A stretch of 25,845 nucleotides of DNA, taken from IMG/VR virus record IMGVR_UViG_3300030012_004034, positions 1 to 25,845 of that record. One strand, written 5' to 3'. The DNA is from a virus. Below are positions 1 to 23,703 of the stretch, piece after piece. Position 1 is the first letter of the stretch. Each line of letters opens with the position of its first letter. The translations under genes were made by a program, and so were the position numbers. The notes under the pieces were generated by a model. That model was given only the letters and a program-made list of their open reading frames with translations, had not been told where the DNA came from and did not search any database.

Positions 1-2
1 AT

Positions 3-989
3 TCTTTGAGAGCAGACCGAATCGGTGGTGTTCCAGAAAACGCATCATTAGATTCGGATTCGGACGGTCTTCAATCAATTGCTCCCGAATACGATACCCT
101 CTTTACGAGTCCAAAAATCATCGCTCATCAATTTGCTTTCAGCGAATTGGCTATGGAAATGGCTCAAATTGATGATGGTATCGGTGATATTCGTGCTCAA
201 TTGAGAGAGGATATGGGCAAGCATCACGCAGAAGTTCAGAATCAAATGCTTGTTATGCCTTTGGAAAACTATTCTCCAACTACGGCATATAACACAGCAA
301 ACGCTATTGATAGAGGATATACTTCTCTTTACAAGATTGTAAGCAACTCGGCTGAAATTACCGAATTGGCTGACGATTCTGGTGGAAACCTTGTTGGAAC
401 GGCAACTGACCAACAAATTGACACCCTTTACGGAAAACTCCGAAGTGCATCAGGCAACGAGTATTTGGACGCAGAAGTTTCTTTTGGCGATGGCTACCTT
501 TCCGCAGAAGCACGACAATTGACGCTTACTGTTATTAACGATATGATTCGCAGACTCCGTGTTGCAGGTGGTTCTCCAAAGGTTATCCTTACTGGATATG
601 ATACGCTTCAAACGCTTTCTGACTTATTACAGGCTCAAGAGCGATTTATGGACAGAAAAGAAATCGTTCCAACTGTGAACGGTGTTCGTGGTGTTAAGGG
701 TCAAGAAGTCGGTTTCCGTGTTTCTACCTACTACGACATTCCTTTGATTCCTGTTGCTGCTATGCCTTCTACTGGTAATAACTCAAGTCAAATTAGTGAT
801 ATGCTTTTCCTTGATACAGACCATTTGTGGCTATCTGTTATGAAGCCAACTCAATACTTTGAAGATGGTATTAGCAACGGAAACCCATTCGGTGTTGGAA
901 ATCTTGGAAACAAGGCTCTTTACCGAACAATGGCTGAAACTGGTTGTTCTTACTTCAAGGGTCAAGGAAAGATTACCAATCTCCTTTGA
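3..989 (+). CDS. HK97-fold major capsid protein (5' end probably off-window)
   Basis: This probably forms the icosahedral shell. After about 45 N-terminal residues there is a long amphipathic helix (from about FAFSELAMEM to HAEVQNQML) that fits the HK97 spine helix. Later come a helix-rich stretch (SAEARQLTLTVINDMIRRL), a beta strand (PKVILTGYDTLQTL) and YYDIPLIPVAAMP, the usual A-domain pattern of HK97-type capsid proteins. The reading frame is open to the window edge. The TTG at position 6 is the first possible start but has no visible ribosome-binding site, and an N-arm and E-loop should precede the spine helix, so I treat the gene as 5'-partial. Codons ending in C are common and GC is near 45% in a sampled 60-base line, unlike the AT-rich tail genes, which fits a highly expressed gene. 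The family is assigned by pattern, not by alignment. Confidence 0.78.
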   Translation, partial: SLRADRIGGVPENASLDSDSDGLQSIAPEYDTLFTSPKIIAHQFAFSELAMEMAQIDDGIGDIRAQLREDMGKHHAEVQNQMLVMPLENYSPTTAYNTANAIDRGYTSLYKIVSNSAEITELADDSGGNLVGTATDQQIDTLYGKLRSASGNEYLDAEVSFGDGYLSAEARQLTLTVINDMIRRLRVAGGSPKVILTGYDTLQTLSDLLQAQERFMDRKEIVPTVNGVRGVKGQEVGFRVSTYYDIPLIPVAAMPSTGNNSSQISDMLFLDTDHLWLSVMKPTQYFEDGISNGNPFGVGNLGNKALYRTMAETGCSYFKGQGKITNLL

Positions 990-999
990 GGTGATTTAA

Positions 1000-1365
1000 T
1001 TGACAGAAGAAGTTTTTACGGTGAGTCTGTTAGCAGACCACAAGGGTTTTACCAAACCGAGAGCAAATGGCGATGAATACATGGTTGATGCTCTACTTGA
1101 TGTTTCAACCTATGATGCTTCTGGTGTTGTTCTTAATGCAAGTAATTTCGGACTAAAAACAATTACTGCGGTTTCTCATACTGGAACTAGCAATGTAAAG
1201 TTTTATCCAACCTTTGTAATTTCAGGAACAGATGGAAGTTATACTAGCGCAACATCATTTACAATGCTGATTGTTGATGCTTTACAGGCTACTCCTGCCG
1301 AAGTTGCAGATGGTGGAACACATAGCGGAATGCAATTCAGATTGAGAGTATTTGGAAATCTTTGA
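1000..1365 (+). CDS. small beta-rich structural protein, candidate capsid decoration protein
   Basis: A 121-residue protein made mostly of beta-strand-like segments rich in Thr, Ser and Gly, ending in MQFRLRVFGNL. It has no signal peptide or membrane segment. It starts at TTG behind GAGGTGA, whose first bases overlap the capsid gene's TGA stop. Its place directly after the major capsid gene and its small beta-rich form suggest a head decoration or minor capsid protein. I do not recognise a named family, so the role rests on position. Confidence 0.6.
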   Translation: MTEEVFTVSLLADHKGFTKPRANGDEYMVDALLDVSTYDASGVVLNASNFGLKTITAVSHTGTSNVKFYPTFVISGTDGSYTSATSFTMLIVDALQATPAEVADGGTHSGMQFRLRVFGNL

Positions 1366-10080: not shown

Positions 10081-10119
10081 CCACCAACACCGTTTGTTTG
10101 TTTGTTGGTTAGAAGGTGG
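10081..10119 (+). promoter_or_regulatory. hairpin that could mask the chaperone ribosome-binding site
   Basis: CCAACA (10084-10089) can pair with TGTTGG (10103-10108), with a GTTT tandem repeat in the loop. CCACC (10081-10085) can also pair with GGTGG (10115-10119), which is the ribosome-binding site of the chaperone gene starting at 10125. The pairings may nest, or switch at the shared CC, and set the level of chaperone translation. The gap has no other visible signal. Confidence 0.4.
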
Positions 10120-10124
10120 AGAAT

Positions 10125-10493
10125 ATGTTGAACAAAAAAGTTGTATCAGATAAAAGTGTGCTTTTTGCACTAAGCGAGCCTACGCTACACTATATTCGTG
10201 TAGCACCCGAAAAAGAAGAATACCTTAAAGTCTGGGTAAAAGAACCCACATGGCTTGAGGTTGATAAAGCCATTAATAGCGTTATGAAAATTAATACTAG
10301 AACGCAACAGATGGATTTAGATTTGAATGCCATGTTTAAATACATGGTTGAAAATTTTATTACAAAGACTGAACCTAGTCTTTCAGCGATTGATATTCTC
10401 AGATTAAATACTTATGTTGGTAATCAACTAAAAGATATTTTACCCAACCCATTTGATTCAATGTCAGGGGATGAAGAAAAAAACGAAGATTGA
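10125..10493 (+). CDS. tail assembly chaperone, short form (lambda gpG-like)
   Basis: The zero-frame product is 122 residues. It lies just before the tape measure gene, where siphoviruses carry the G/GT chaperone pair that coats the tape measure during tail assembly. The text WVKEPTWLEVDKAINSVMKI followed by helices (LDLNAMFKYMVENFI, IDILRLNTYVGNQL) fits these small helical proteins. The end is acidic (SGDEEKNED). I chose ATG 10125, five bases after AAGGTGG, over the GTG at 10116. A slippery A_AAA_AAC lies three codons before the TGA stop. The family is assigned by position, size and the frameshift rather than by sequence identity. Confidence 0.68.
   Translation: MLNKKVVSDKSVLFALSEPTLHYIRVAPEKEEYLKVWVKEPTWLEVDKAINSVMKINTRTQQMDLDLNAMFKYMVENFITKTEPSLSAIDILRLNTYVGNQLKDILPNPFDSMSGDEEKNED
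10478..10484 (+). promoter_or_regulatory. -1 programmed frameshift site A_AAA_AAC
   Basis: The seven bases are in the correct register (gaA AAA AAC) for a tandem -1 slip, within a run of seven A. AGGGG at 10466-10470, 7 bases upstream, could act as an internal Shine-Dalgarno stimulator, as at dnaX. After the slip, reading resumes at CGA (10484) and stays open to 10693. Such a shift is conserved in tail chaperone genes of tailed phages (lambda G/GT type). Confidence 0.75.
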
Positions 10494-10693
10494 GGGGAGC
10501 GTTAAAAGGTGGTAAAATACAACCACAAGATGTTTCTCTCATTATCGTCTATACGCTTTCTAAAGCGTTGGGCATTAGTCCTTTAGAGGTCTATAAAATG
10601 CCTAGCAGTTTAGTAGCAGATTTAATGATGATGGTTAATATACAAAATGAATTAGAAGCCGAAGAAATAGAAAAGGCAAAGAAAGGAAAGTGA
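10484..10693 (+). CDS. tail assembly chaperone, frameshift extension (lambda T-like)
   Basis: This frame is reached by the -1 slip and gives a fusion of about 189 residues (120 from the upstream frame plus 69). The added part begins RRLRGALKGGKIQPQD and continues with helices (SLIIVYTLSKALGISPLEVY, ADLMMMVNIQNELEAEE), ending in Lys. In lambda the T part binds the tail tube protein and the G part binds the tape measure. An alternative is separate translation from the TTG at 10490 that overlaps the TGA of the short form, but the slippery heptamer makes fusion more likely. Confidence 0.68.
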   Translation, partial: RRLRGALKGGKIQPQDVSLIIVYTLSKALGISPLEVYKMPSSLVADLMMMVNIQNELEAEEIEKAKKGK

Positions 10694-10697
10694 TATT

Positions 10698-12761
10698 TTG
10701 GCCGATGATGCTGCTTCAATAATGGCAACAAGAGTCGCTATGATTAATACGCGACTTGAGGTTCTTAATGAAAATCATAAGACAACAAAACAGGCTATTA
10801 AACAATTAGAAAGCACTTATACTAATTTACATGTTGAAGCAACCAAAGCATACCTGCTTACCGAAAATGGTATGAAACATATGGTTGAAACAATGGGAAA
10901 ATTAAATACAAAACTAGTTGAGCAAGAAACAGAAACGGAAGTGAAAAGACAAGAAACTATTACTAAGATTAAAGAAATATCAACTGCTAATGAAAAACTC
11001 AAAAAGGATATGCTAGAATCTAATAATGCTATTCAAAAATCAATTAAGAAAATAAATAAAGCATTAAAAAAACAACAGGCAAGTCAGCAAGATGCTGCTA
11101 AATTAATACAAGAAGAAAAGGACAGGGCTAAGGCATTTGAAAATCTTAAAAATAAATATGAAGGATTTATAACAAAAGAAGATGAGGCTATAAGTGCTTT
11201 AGATACTAGAAGTAGATTGCTTGGAAAAGCAATTGAAAAGTATAGAAAAGAAACAGGCGACAGAAAGTTGCCTTTCTTTGAAGGAATGTCTAGGTATTTA
11301 GAAGAAGGTGGAACAAGAGCAGAATATCTTGCTCAGTTTTTAACTTCATCAAGAGAAGAATTAAAAGTCTTTGGTGTTGAAGTGGGAACTGTTAGAAGAA
11401 TCATGTATGGGTTTTTACCGCCTGGAACTTTTAGAATTGTAAATAAATTCGCTTCATCTTTAAATGTCGTTGGTGCAGGTATAAGAAGCATAAGGGCTGA
11501 TGCTGAAGGAACAGGTAATATATTAACTAAAACATTATTTGCGGGAACTTTAGACAAAAAAGCCTTTGCTAGACTCAAGGGAAGAAAAGGAGAACTTGAT
11601 ACGCAAGTGTCTGAAGTTGAAGCGGATATTGCAGCAGAAGAAGGAATAATCTCAAGTTCTACTGCAAGTGACGCTCAAAAAGAATCAGCGAGAGAAGCAT
11701 TGGAATATCTTGAAGGAATAAAAGAAGAGTTGGTAAAAGAGAGAAAAGAGGTTGAAAAGAAAATTAAAAAGCAGGGCGGATTTATTGCAAAACAAATTTC
11801 TAATTCACGATTTGGAAAAGCGGGTATTGCTCTCAATGAAAGAATGACTAAAAAACTTGAAGCAATGAATGAATACTTAGATGATTTAGCAGAAAACGGA
11901 AATATTTTGCAAAAAGGTTTCGCTAAGGTCGCTAAGGTGGTCTTATCCGTAGGTAAATTTATATTCATGGCTTCAATGTATCTAATCCTTTTCTTAATTG
12001 CCTTTACTGTAATTAAGAAGTTCTTTACAAGTAATGCTGAAAAGTTTAAGGAATTCTTTAATATGGCTTCAAAAGTATTAATACCTTTGGTAAGTTTTGC
12101 TCTTGAAGGCATTATGAATACAATTAATTCAGTTCTTGAGATTATTACTGGGATATTTTCTGGTGATATAGACCAAATATTAGAAGGGGTGGTTGGTGTG
12201 CTTTTGGGTGTTGGTCAATTCCTTTTAGGGCTTATTGGAACTATTTTCTTAGGTGCGCTTTCTTTGGTTGCCTCTGTTGGTTATGTTTTGTGGGGTAAAT
12301 TCGTAGACTGGATAGAAAGTTCCGAAAGAAGTTTCATGGAAAAAATTGGAGACATTATTGGTCTAGCAATAACAATTGCAGCACTATTGTTCCTAGTTAG
12401 TTTGTTGCCTATACAATTGCCCTTCCTAATTGTGGCGGCTGTTGGTGTAGTTGTATTTAAAGCCGTTAAAAAGATAATAGAAGCAATTCCTGGTTTTGCA
12501 ACAGGAGGCGTTTCTTCTGGAGGATTGGCTATTGTCGGAGAAAAGGGACCAGAATTAGTTACTTTACCTAAAAATGCAAAAGTTCATTCTAATACAGAAA
12601 GTAAAAGCATGGTTAAGGGCGGCTCAACTGTTAATAATTTCAATATTACAATTAATGCAAAAGACTCCTCTAAAGCAGAAATGCGAAGAATGGCAGATGA
12701 AATTGGTAGAATGATAAGTTCAAAGATTAATAGAAGCACTTCCTCAAGCACATTACGGTGA
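10698..12761 (+). CDS. tail tape measure protein
   Basis: A 687-residue protein that sets tail length. Residues 1-150 form long coiled-coil helices (NEKLKKDMLESNNAIQKSI). Hydrophobic stretches lie at about 418-444, 462-487, 494-535 and 553-588, as usual for tape measures that cross the host membrane. At about 599-630 is the typical end motif FATGGVSSGG, GEKGPELVTLP. The usual ratio of about 0.15 nm per residue predicts a tail near 100 nm. It starts at TTG 10698, directly after the chaperone genes. Its TGA is part of the next gene's GGTGA. Confidence 0.85.
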   Translation: MADDAASIMATRVAMINTRLEVLNENHKTTKQAIKQLESTYTNLHVEATKAYLLTENGMKHMVETMGKLNTKLVEQETETEVKRQETITKIKEISTANEKLKKDMLESNNAIQKSIKKINKALKKQQASQQDAAKLIQEEKDRAKAFENLKNKYEGFITKEDEAISALDTRSRLLGKAIEKYRKETGDRKLPFFEGMSRYLEEGGTRAEYLAQFLTSSREELKVFGVEVGTVRRIMYGFLPPGTFRIVNKFASSLNVVGAGIRSIRADAEGTGNILTKTLFAGTLDKKAFARLKGRKGELDTQVSEVEADIAAEEGIISSSTASDAQKESAREALEYLEGIKEELVKERKEVEKKIKKQGGFIAKQISNSRFGKAGIALNERMTKKLEAMNEYLDDLAENGNILQKGFAKVAKVVLSVGKFIFMASMYLILFLIAFTVIKKFFTSNAEKFKEFFNMASKVLIPLVSFALEGIMNTINSVLEIITGIFSGDIDQILEGVVGVLLGVGQFLLGLIGTIFLGALSLVASVGYVLWGKFVDWIESSERSFMEKIGDIIGLAITIAALLFLVSLLPIQLPFLIVAAVGVVVFKAVKKIIEAIPGFATGGVSSGGLAIVGEKGPELVTLPKNAKVHSNTESKSMVKGGSTVNNFNITINAKDSSKAEMRRMADEIGRMISSKINRSTSSSTLR

Positions 12762-21089: not shown

Positions 21090-22334
21090 ATGGTAAGTAA
21101 TCCGAACTATTACAGTCAAAGCACAACGGCTACATTTAATCAAATAGAAGATGGTCAAGATTTTCCTCATACTGGAATTATTAAATCTTTATCTCAAGGA
21201 TTAGGTCAAAACTATGCAATTAGTGGGTTTGACATTACTTTTGATAGTGCTACGCAAATTGATGTAGGAGCAGGAGTTATCTTTAGAGATGGTAAAAGAC
21301 ACGCAATTAGCGCAGTTCCTAATTTAACTTTGGGTAGGACTGATGTTGGAGAAAATTCTTATCATTTAGTTGTTGTTGATAAAGATAATGCAATCGCCAT
21401 TAGAAGCCCAAGTGCTAAAGATAAAGTAGCACCATATACTGAAAGAACGGGTAGTAATACTCATGGAGACACAATTATTGCTATGGTCACTCATAATGGC
21501 AGTAATCCAATGCCAGTTCAATATTTAACAATAAGTAAAGCAGAAAATTCTCAATCTATTGGATATAGCAATAGTGGGACATATACTGAGGCTATGTCAA
21601 TAGAAGGCACTTCTACTAAAACAACCTTCCATAACAAAATAGCAGATGCTGATGTTAGATTTGTATTAGGAGACAATACTGCTGATGAAAAATTTGAGAT
21701 TGTTACTGATGATGACGCTGATGGAGACTTAACTGATACACTTACTGAAGTATTTTCAGTAAATGGATTAGGTGCTACTTCAATTGCAGGAACGGTTAAT
21801 TTAGGAAGTGTAGTTAATGCTGGAACAGATACAGATAAATTCTTAGTTTTAGATAGTGGCGGAAATGTAGATTTTAGAACTGGAACGGAAGTAAGAAGCG
21901 ATATTGGAGCAGGAACATTAAGTGCAGAATCAGATACATTAGATACTGTCACAGGAAGAGGAAACACAACTGGTAATGATATAACAGCAGGGTCTATTGC
22001 ATCTACTATTAATCAGAACATATCATTTGAATTAATTACTGCTGGACAACCCATTAGTGGAGGAAAAACAGTTGTTTATGCATTTCAACTTAGTGGTCCT
22101 GTTGCTTTACCTGCTCCCGCTACTGGAAATATTCTTTATATTAAAAATATAGACCCATCAGGGCCAATAACTATTATTGGAAGTCCTTTAATTGATAATG
22201 GTGTTCATCCAAGTCATCCTAAACTTACAGGGGCAAATCAAATTACATTAAATCCATTTGAAACCGTAACCTTACAAGCAGTAAATGATGTTAGTGGGGT
22301 TATACAAGCAGGTCATATGATTATAAGTGATTGA
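21090..22334 (+). CDS. tail fibre protein
   Basis: A 414-residue protein with a modular fibre layout. The N-terminal part (FDITFDSATQIDVGAGVIFR, YHLVVVDKDNAIAIRSPS) resembles baseplate-attachment domains. The centre has short Gly/Asn/Thr repeats typical of trimeric fibres (GNVDFRTGTEVRSDIGAGT, LDTVTGRGNTTGNDITAGSI). The C-terminal part (NILYIKNIDPSGPITIIG, LNPFETVTLQAVNDVSG) is a beta domain like knob-end domains of phage fibres. It starts at ATG two bases after the previous stop, with GGAGG upstream. It probably makes the first contact with the host. Confidence 0.65.
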   Translation: MVSNPNYYSQSTTATFNQIEDGQDFPHTGIIKSLSQGLGQNYAISGFDITFDSATQIDVGAGVIFRDGKRHAISAVPNLTLGRTDVGENSYHLVVVDKDNAIAIRSPSAKDKVAPYTERTGSNTHGDTIIAMVTHNGSNPMPVQYLTISKAENSQSIGYSNSGTYTEAMSIEGTSTKTTFHNKIADADVRFVLGDNTADEKFEIVTDDDADGDLTDTLTEVFSVNGLGATSIAGTVNLGSVVNAGTDTDKFLVLDSGGNVDFRTGTEVRSDIGAGTLSAESDTLDTVTGRGNTTGNDITAGSIASTINQNISFELITAGQPISGGKTVVYAFQLSGPVALPAPATGNILYIKNIDPSGPITIIGSPLIDNGVHPSHPKLTGANQITLNPFETVTLQAVNDVSGVIQAGHMIISD

Positions 22335-22415
22335 ATGGAATTAATTGTATTGGCTATAATAGCCTTTATCTGTGGTTTTCTTGCAACATGGTTAGCCACA
22401 ATTGACGATTTATGA
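22335..22415 (+). CDS. 26-residue single-pass membrane peptide
   Basis: A short frame that starts at ATG directly after the fibre stop and ends at TGA 22413-22415. It reads MELIVLAIIAFICGFLATWL followed by a short acidic end (ATIDDL), which is a single membrane helix with one Cys. Position at the end of the late operon is where lysis or egress genes of tailed viruses often lie, so a holin-like or membrane-disrupting role is possible. The ribosome-binding site is weak. The frame is short, so confidence is limited. Confidence 0.4.
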   Translation: MELIVLAIIAFICGFLATWLATIDDL

Positions 22416-22429
22416 CCAACTTTGCCGTT

Positions 22430-22531
22430 GCATTCAAATCAAGTCGCAGGAGGTATTGAATGCAGGTGTGTCATGCCTAATATGAGAAAATGCTCTCATT
22501 TAGGCCAACAAAATTCGTAATAAGCGAATTT
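22430..22531 (+). ncRNA. candidate structured RNA: three stem-loops in the operon tail
   Basis: Three consecutive stem-loops are visible. GCATTCAA (22430-22437) pairs perfectly with TTGAATGC (22456-22463) around an 18-base loop that holds AGGAGG. CCTAA-ATGAGA (22476-22487, one T bulged) pairs with TCTCATTTAGG (22494-22504) around six bases. AAATTCG (22511-22517) pairs with CGAATTT (22525-22531) around seven bases. A terminator hairpin follows at 22565. The region has no supported reading frame. It may be the 3' end of the late mRNA or a separate small RNA. The AGGAGG in the first loop could bind the 16S anti-Shine-Dalgarno end. This is inference from pairing only. Confidence 0.42.
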
Positions 22532-22555
22532 AAAATTGAACATTAGAAAAAATCC

Positions 22556-22600
22556 AAAAAAAAAGAGAGGGAGCATACGCTCCCCCTCAATTTGTTTTTT
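22556..22600. terminator. bidirectional hairpin terminator between converging operons
   Basis: GAGAGGGAGC (22565-22574) pairs with GCTCCCCCTC (22579-22588) around ATAC, with one A-C mismatch. On the plus side it is followed by TTTGTTTTTT (22591-22600). On the minus side it is followed by the complement of nine A (22556-22564), giving a T-tract there also. It lies where the late operon and the replication operon converge, and could stop transcription of both. The last codon of the minus-strand zinc-ribbon gene overlaps the right arm. Confidence 0.65.
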
Positions 22601-22730
22601 CCGACCAAATGGAATTACAGGCTCTACATTCCCACAATTTTACTTGTTCAGTAGAACCAACATAAAAGCCAAGTAATCGTCTTGCTACTGTCTTTTCTTT
22701 ACAGTAGAAACATTCTTGCTTCAATGCCAT
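22587..22730 (-). CDS. small zinc-ribbon protein
   Basis: A 47-residue protein on the minus strand, from ATG at 22730 to TGA at 22587-22589. Two Cys pairs, C7/C10 (CFYC) and C35/C38 (CRAC), form a classic four-Cys zinc ribbon. The linker is basic (KEKTVARRLLGFY). It starts four bases after the stop of the membrane gene in the same operon, and its own stop lies in the terminator hairpin. Such ribbons often bind nucleic acid or act as transcription regulators; the target is unknown. Confidence 0.6.
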   Translation of the reverse strand: MALKQECFYCKEKTVARRLLGFYVGSTEQVKLWECRACNSIWSEKTN

Positions 22731-22734
22731 ATCA

Positions 22735-22881
22735 TCACTTTTGGCTATCTTCGCCCATCAGCCGCTTCATGTATTCTTCAACGCTTTCATCGGTAATATT
22801 TGTTCCACCGAAAGCGGCAAAGAATAGAAGCATTAGAATGCTGATGAAAAAGAATAAACCAATCCATTCCCATGTTGTCAT
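22735..22881 (-). CDS. small single-pass membrane protein
   Basis: A 48-residue protein on the minus strand. Residues 4-24 form one membrane helix (WEWIGLFFFISILMLLFFAA). The rest is acidic and polar (NITDESVEEYMKRLMGED). Its ATG shares a base with the exonuclease TAA stop (TAATG), behind a good GAGGTGAT, so translation is clearly supported. It could anchor a replication protein at the membrane or act in lysis or egress. No family is recognised. Confidence 0.58.
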   Translation of the reverse strand: MTTWEWIGLFFFISILMLLFFAAFGGTNITDESVEEYMKRLMGEDSQK

Positions 22882-23474
22882 TACCACATCACCTCTAATT
22901 CTTTATGTTCGCCTTTTTCTAAAGAAAAAGCCTTAACGATACCATTTGTTTGCCCATACTTCCAAAGGTCATAGACTAATTGAGTATCTTTCATACAATA
23001 CTCAACAACTTCATCATATTGCCCTGCTTTCCATAACTTAGGGGCATCTGCACTATCCATTAGTTTAAAATCATCCATTGTGCATTTAACTAGATTTTTT
23101 AATTGAAATCTTTCACCATGCTCTTTCAAAAGTATTCTTGAAGTATCAATGAATTGTTCTTCTTTGAGATACTTATTGATACAATAGATGTCCATAGAAT
23201 CTCTAAGAATAGGCAAATCAAAAGCCTTAATGTTATGCCCCAATAATAGTCCTCCCTTTTGAAAATGATTATCTAAATCATATTTAAGTTCAGAAAGAGG
23301 TTTAATAGTATGGCCTGATTTAGCAAAAGTATCAACAGGTTCATCAACATAAACCGTTCCATTTTGTCCATCCCATGTTGCTACGGTTGATACTTGAAAC
23401 ATATGGGTATTGCTGAAACCACCAATGTCATACGACATATTTTTGGTTTCTAAATCAATAGCCAACACAGACAT
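22881..23474 (-). CDS. DEDDy-type 3'-5' exonuclease (RNase H-like fold)
   Basis: A 197-residue protein with the three exonuclease motifs: AIDLE (D7, E9), HNIKAFDLP (D86) and YCMKD (Y159, D163). These residues bind two metals and cut nucleotides from a DNA or RNA 3' end. The Tyr in the third motif places it in the DEDDy group, as in proofreading domains of DNA polymerases. It has no polymerase domain, so it is probably a stand-alone repair, recombination or proofreading enzyme. The start at ATG 23474 is preceded by GGTGA at a spacing of five; a GTG at 23483 overlapping the upstream stop is the alternative. Confidence 0.75.
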   Translation of the reverse strand: MSVLAIDLETKNMSYDIGGFSNTHMFQVSTVATWDGQNGTVYVDEPVDTFAKSGHTIKPLSELKYDLDNHFQKGGLLLGHNIKAFDLPILRDSMDIYCINKYLKEEQFIDTSRILLKEHGERFQLKNLVKCTMDDFKLMDSADAPKLWKAGQYDEVVEYCMKDTQLVYDLWKYGQTNGIVKAFSLEKGEHKELEVMW

Positions 23475-23475
23475 A

Positions 23476-23703
23476 TCATTCACCGTTAGACCAAAGTTTG
23501 CTAATCTTTTCTTCTTCTTTATTTACTTTAGGTTCTTCGTTAAGGTCGGTTCTTCGCTTTAAAAAGCAGACAATCTGCTTATTTGCAACAATTAATTGGG
23601 AACAACATTCCCAACCATCTTCACCATAAGTATTCAATGTATCAATGATTACTTTTGGCCCTTTCTCAACTTGAAACACCAGATAGGTATTTTCCCACTT
23701 CAT
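23476..23703 (-). CDS. DUF4177-like small protein
   Basis: A 75-residue protein. The first 50 residues (YLVFQVEKGPKVIIDTLNTY, GEDGWECCSQLI, FLKRR) follow the pattern of DUF4177-type proteins: a strand, a helix with LN-x-x-G-x-x-GWE, then strands ending in KR. The remaining 25 residues are charged and probably flexible. Function of that family is not known. The start overlaps the ATPase stop (ATGA), and the stop lies in the next gene's start region, so it belongs to the replication operon. Confidence 0.55.
   Translation of the reverse strand: MKWENTYLVFQVEKGPKVIIDTLNTYGEDGWECCSQLIVANKQIVCFLKRRTDLNEEPKVNKEEEKISKLWSNGE

Follow-up and report, generated by a model that had tools for sequence, protein, structure and literature searches.

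A conserved U-tract terminator and a swappable fibre cassette appear to meet between converging operons of a magrovirus-like genome

What is a row of four stem-loops doing where two viral operons run towards each other? The question is raised by the window, meaning here the whole record IMGVR_UViG_3300030012_004034, a virus fragment of 25,845 bases. A preliminary description had placed four stem-loops at the junction of converging operons at 22416-22600 and read them as a possible viral structured RNA. All four are present, and the ends of the open reading frames (ORFs) on both strands confirm the convergence: plus-strand ORFs stop at 22334, with a 26-aa ORF ending at about 22414, and minus-strand ORFs stop at 22587. 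The reading favoured here, with a probability of about 0.72, is that the junction is the 3' seam of two oppositely transcribed modules, at which an archaeal terminator forms the anchor and a late fibre cassette can be swapped.

The plus strand of the window carries an SU10-type capsid gene, a tail tube gene and a tape-measure-like gene, and the minus strand a DNA-polymerase-type exonuclease and an ERCC4/HHH nuclease, all assigned by Pfam/PHROG profile matches. A 487-aa protein of the minus strand has relatives in 49 virus loci, and 80 of the 215 loci matching the exonuclease were retained. The largest relatives are mostly 92-97 kb long, and a Cpn60/TCP-1 chaperonin is encoded in 17 of 18 large relative records. 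Magroviruses, known solely from metagenomes, are tailed viruses assigned to marine Poseidoniales archaea (PMC12999244). Within the order Magrovirales, the profile of the family Apasviridae describes genomes of 90-110 kb with oppositely directed morphogenetic and replication modules, and members that have no integrase (PMC12999244). The layout is the same here: structural genes stand opposite the replication module in the window and its relatives, and the large relatives carry the chaperonin. This fits part of a magrovirus-like genome, from a tailed virus of archaea abundant in the ocean, likened to Magrovirales at the level of the order, with Poseidoniales as the probable host by analogy. The Apasviridae profile gives no account of the junction. 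DNA searches against named phage records gave no match, and a scan of species genomes returned no relative and no host match, only one irrelevant weak match. One relative, IMGVR_UViG_3300021958_000021 (L014), is 184,733 bases long, roughly double what is usual for magroviruses, and has two chaperonin genes; it may be a concatemer of two genomes.

Three of the four hairpins are read on the plus strand, and the first belongs to a longer module:

22416..22472, plus strand: type-A module, a lead (CCAACTTT..CG) followed by H1, seen by RNAalifold and in covariance-model matches
22429-22437/22456-22464 (arms), plus strand: H1, 8-9 bp, with AGGAGG in its loop at 22448-22453
22475-22487/22494-22505 (arms), plus strand: H2, 12 pairs with one bulge
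22511-22518/22524-22531 (arms), plus strand: H3, in the nearest relatives only

The density of hairpins is indeed beyond chance, as had been suspected. For the 185-nt stretch the folding energy is -50.4 kcal/mol, where dinucleotide shuffles give -32.9 +/- 3.7 (z -4.68, 0 of 1000 as good), and the 135 nt that are left when the terminator is removed reach z -3.2, with 3 of 1000 shuffles as good. Taken singly, H1 scores z -2.3 (22 of 1000), H2 -4.8 (none), H3 -4.0 (4) and the terminator -5.9 (none). Strength of folding is not unique to the junction, which ranks 16th of 395 segments of 130 nt by minimum free energy alone; 50 sampled segments of this length have a mean z of -0.46 (sd 1.41, minimum -4.33), and 1356-1485 reaches z -5.5. 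The minus strand of the stretch folds well too (z -4.0), so folding by itself cannot choose the strand. No tRNA was found in the window. Far from the junction, the region 1340-1500 has an unusually stable fold (z -4.1 to -5.5) that spans the start of an ORF at 1376.

The fourth hairpin lies at the end of the early operon and is read on the minus strand:

22565..22588 (arms 22565-22574/22579-22588), minus strand: hairpin of the early-operon terminator, which overlaps the CxxC ORF at its stop
22547..22564, minus strand: double U-tract, U9-GG-A-U6, read from 22564 down to 22547
22587..22730, minus strand: 47-aa CxxC...CxxC ORF (MALKQECFYCKEK...), the early operon's final gene
22881..23483, minus strand: DNA-polymerase-type 3'-5' exonuclease (phrog_403, RNase_H_2), the anchor gene

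On this strand the stop codon of the last early ORF is where the hairpin begins, with the U-tract right behind it. The 132 loci that carry the 47-aa CxxC ORF gave 74 distinct junctions for comparison. A T-run of 7-11 nt is present in all 66 distinct relatives, and a second T-run, giving the double T pattern, in 67 of the 74 junctions. Of 62 distinct 45-nt stretches, 49 have the hairpin immediately ahead of six or more T on the minus strand; in the other 13 no hairpin lies just before the T-run, L045 having it displaced and the remaining 12 having none there. It comes in two main allele classes whose stems and loops differ (GTAT loop; UUCG loop). The terminator proposed in the preliminary description is supported by this comparison and conserved in the relatives.

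According to parts of PMC8716108, U-tracts are the archaeal termination signal, two are the most effective and a hairpin is no absolute requirement. By sequence, the end of the early operon carries such a signal, which calls for at least one tract of at least four U at the transcript end and is strongest with two. As at archaeal U-tract terminators dependent on aCPSF1/FttA, two U-tracts stand at the operon end, and the hairpin is dispensable in deep relatives; unlike at those terminators, most relatives here add a bacterial-style GC hairpin right before the U-tract. The GC-rich hairpin directly before the U-run that marks a bacterial-type intrinsic terminator is present in the 49 stretches and not in the 13. 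The minus-strand operon thus appears to close with a conserved archaeal-type U-tract terminator in which the hairpin is facultative; that transcription ends there is what we infer. On the plus strand, a T-run of at least six lies just past the hairpin, within the CxxC ORF, in 38 of 66 relatives. It is possible that the terminator acts on this strand as well, and that arrangement is less constant.

The late side of the junction is made up of the following features:

21090..22334, plus strand: putative tail fibre/receptor-binding gene, 414 aa, with its N-terminus conserved and its C-terminus replaced among close relatives
22334..22414, plus strand: 26-aa single-transmembrane ORF MELIVLAIIAFICGFLATWLATIDDL, its start overlapping the fibre stop, with related ORFs at 8 other loci
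22490..22506: seam motif ATGCTCTCATTTAGGCC (relatives ATGCTCTCATTTAGCC / CTGATTTAGCC), the point at which the conserved anchor begins on its left side in many pairs

Searches of Pfam/PHROG with the 414-aa protein gave no match. Its C-terminal half cannot be aligned in most of the relatives whose early genes are 94-96% identical. Its fold model is of low confidence (mean pLDDT 50.6), and the best PDB match to that model is the tail fibre of Haloferax tailed virus 1 (E 1.1e-3). Position, variability and this low-confidence model together suggest a putative tail fibre or receptor binder. The 26-aa ORF travels with the fibre end and has coding-like differences by codon position (0.21/0.10/0.30). 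In several clades the same place is held by other short membrane ORFs.

The seam was profiled in 71 pairs, covering 37 of 52 loci, chosen for an identity of 90% or more across the final 900 nt of the early side. The early side is 100% alignable over 2900 nt. On the late side, the aligned fraction past the last stop is 97% at 0-100 nt, 47% at 100-200 nt and 14% at 1000-1100 nt, and it recovers to 57-59% at 1500-1700 nt, roughly where the fibre gene's conserved 5' part and the neighbour upstream of it lie. Among 55 close pairs (at least 92% identity), homology ends 60-150 nt past the stop in 35, and 7 run through the seam beyond 1000 nt. Several of the breaks coincide with the motif ATGCTCTCATTTAGCC (22490-22506 in the window), which in several relatives comes directly after the fibre stop codon or contains the stop itself, as CTGATTTAGCC. 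A CTSATTTA motif is found within 140 nt in 32 of the 74 junctions. Homology edges therefore cluster at a short conserved sequence on the edge of a module, the arrangement expected of a boundary sequence. Such edges mark where shared sequence ends and not the positions of crossovers; crossovers in the early module combined with selection would look alike. In L026, L028, L029, L030, L031, L042 and L046, part of the H2/H3 sequence is matched by the last codons of a short membrane ORF (for example ...DFDLPEQNSK*); the anchor thus encodes protein in this one clade and is non-coding in the window.

Comparison of individual genomes points in the same direction. In their early genes, L002-L006 match the window at mostly 93-97% identity (83-99% by gene), while in L002-L004 and L006 the C-terminal half of the fibre can hardly be aligned or not at all. 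The fibre is not replaced in every relative, as the whole gene of L005 can be aligned with that of the window at about 80%. Between L005 and L006 the early protein distance is 0.000, against 0.18 for a 117-aa protein and 0.32 for the fibre N-terminus; between L036 and L038 the values are 0.003 against 0.55 and 0.62. Chimeras of this kind, with identical early proteins and differing fibre genes, argue that the late side was exchanged and did not drift fast. The capsid end (window 1-1091) is 88-91% identical in L002 and L003, and the region from tail tube to tape measure about 70%. Because the capsid end and the early side are both more alike than the tail region, the tail and fibre genes form an island flanked by two more constant blocks. 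Judged from these alignments, the four hairpins sit on the right edge of that island. A variable gene with constant flanks in close genomes is also the arrangement of a hypervariable cassette.

Under the favoured reading, the constant anchor on the right (22490-22590) would close the early/replication operon. Early transcripts would pass from the last stop into the GC-rich hairpin and end at the U9 and U6 tracts by the archaeal route. The swappable cassette on the left would consist of the distal putative fibre gene and often the tiny transmembrane ORF; in some lineages it would add a short hairpin module, either type A, which is H1, or type B, the TTTTCATATGAAAA palindrome. New fibre cassettes would come in through homologous exchange between two conserved flanks, the anchor and the 5' end of the fibre gene. 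H1 would then be part of the late mRNA's 3' UTR and would be carried along with the cassette.

H1 occurs in the window and in the contigs of nine close relatives (10 records, 7 distinct sequences) and emerges unprompted from RNAalifold. Its covariance-model search returned the 10 known records and then weak rows only, two of which are the type-B site (L086, E 0.12; L003, E 0.61). Across the 7 sequences, 15 of 18 arm columns are invariant, against 1 of 18 inner and loop columns. With four-fold degenerate sites of early genes as the comparison set (94 of 222 invariant, 42%), the arm invariance has a binomial P of 0.0005, read with the proviso that the junction's history may differ from that of the early genes. 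Covariation is modest: three inner pairs have double changes, several inner pairs are broken, and the outer stem has two one-sided changes, which on the plus strand turn G-C into G.U and C-G into U.G and keep the pairing. The inner stem shows a compensatory A-U/U-A swap in L011 and is broken in others. For the whole structure the covariation count exceeds that of shuffles, in sequences that are related. The idea that the AGGAGG loop competes for the anti-SD end of the ribosome was rejected, as AGGAGG is found in just 3 of the 7 sequences. A role for AGGAGG as the ribosome site of a tiny ORF was rejected too: on inspection, the ORFs that begin at or close to it stop immediately or shift frame in relatives.

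The strict H1 pattern was found in 4 of 19 records, in one copy per genome (G002 is listed twice because its match is palindromic); no second copy was found in the genomes searched, and H1 as a repeated or widespread site was discarded. Pattern matches outside magroviruses (9 of 18 loci; 10 of 14 in a second search) lacked the module on inspection. In L003, L018, L025 and L086, an unrelated palindrome, TTTTCATATGAAAA, occupies H1's place between similar flanks, so two unrelated inverted repeats share one site, between CCAACTTT and CTCATTTAG. By sequence conservation, H1 is a hairpin kept in one group of relatives and appears to be a modest new element. Of the structured 3' UTR that had been suggested, H1 is the part that stands, within the window and nine contigs. 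It may be a hairpin in the late mRNA's 3' UTR that moves with the cassette.

Could the whole of 22416-22600 instead be a single viral structured RNA, either a small RNA or a protective 3' UTR of the late mRNA, that ends at the terminator? The excess folding is shared by L002, L004 and L011 (z -3.8, -3.1 and -6.3) and H1 is conserved, but folding of the whole stretch drops to z -0.5 in L017 and -0.8 in L014, both of which still have H1, while H1 is missing from most relatives that retain the terminator. Rfam had no match in the window at the gathering score. The full stem of H2 exists in the window only: its outer pairs depend on a base unique to the window and are broken in 6 of 6 relatives, which have GCC opposite a GCC arm or its variants. 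A shorter AAATG/CATTT pairing is left in the H2 consensus, and its variation is not telling. H3 is identical or nearly so in 5 of the 7 H1-bearing sequences, is lost in L007 and L011, and by inspection shrinks to about 3 pairs in wider relatives. Of the original four hairpins the RNAalifold consensus recovers only H1 and the terminator; H2 and H3 are mostly local accidents and require no function of their own. The preliminary description had let its claim depend on folding beyond the shuffled range and on compensatory changes in homologues; the former was found, whereas the latter are confined to H1, where only its inner part has them, and to the terminator, where they take the form of different alleles. 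One RNA with four hairpins is accordingly quite improbable. A doubtful but less strained alternative treats H1 and the type-B palindrome as DNA sites and not RNA hairpins, serving as inverted repeats for a dimeric protein or as cruciforms in recombination or replication. The H1 arms are conserved in sequence and not in pairing alone, and two unrelated inverted repeats at one place would suit such a site. A single copy per genome where searched leaves no inversion partner, however, and the two outer-stem changes keep a plus-strand G.U pairing that a DNA dyad would lose, although these are just two events.

The exchange of cassettes can also be questioned. If the fibre end simply evolved very fast after a common ancestor, the seam would be no more than the onset of constraint; fibre genes are expected to diversify, and some relatives, such as L005, are about 80% alignable throughout. 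Against this stand the pairs with identical or near-identical early proteins whose fibre N-termini are 32-62% different. L086 adds the reverse case, sharing the fibre end (92%) and the transmembrane ORF (95%) with the window despite a larger divergence of its early genes (79-87% identity); its contig ends there. Unless these contigs are chimeric assemblies, fast evolution without exchange is already contradicted, and it is given very little credence. A stronger form of the favoured reading is unlikely, though it deserves mention: the junction would be an evolved docking site for the exchange of fibre cassettes among lytic archaeal viruses that have no retroelement or inversion systems, and the type A and type B repeats would be functional elements that travel with the cassettes and aid either the exchange or the 3' end of the late mRNA.

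Diversity-generating retroelements (DGRs) and invertible fibre cassettes also vary phage receptor genes. In DGRs, a hairpin follows the variable region. No reverse transcriptase was found in any of 18 records searched, and a DGR was rejected on this ground. Metaviromic islands, or host-recognition cassettes, of marine phages likewise replace tail and receptor genes between very similar viruses, as described in parts of PMC3909814. The islands treated in those parts are defined by read recruitment, whereas the present one is defined by genome comparison, belongs to archaeal viruses and has a defined conserved 3' edge. The boundary-sequence model of phage mosaicism, as outlined in sections of PMC3233612, places a short conserved sequence at gene ends, as here, where the boundary is drawn from homology edges.

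No description of the junction was found in the literature searched, most subscription literature lying outside that search. The terminator and the fibre island are mostly of known kinds, met here in a new place within a poorly described virus group. A fixed seam beside the most variable gene offers a handle to collect and type the fibre cassettes of magroviruses, and it lets one ask how viruses of uncultured archaea change their host range. The series of terminators with and without a hairpin in one virus group provides a natural comparison for the rules of archaeal termination. H1 is small and testable, and nothing so far raises it above a lineage-specific 3' UTR hairpin.

A further observation concerns 10116-10700, ahead of the tape-measure-like gene. 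A 125-aa ORF ends there at 10493, a slippery run, AAAAAAAC, lies at 10477 before its stop, the -1 frame is open over 10475-10693, and a strong stem (z -3.6) follows the run. The sequence makes a programmed -1 frameshift before the tape-measure-like gene likely, in an arrangement similar to that of tail assembly chaperone pairs, lambda G/GT among them.
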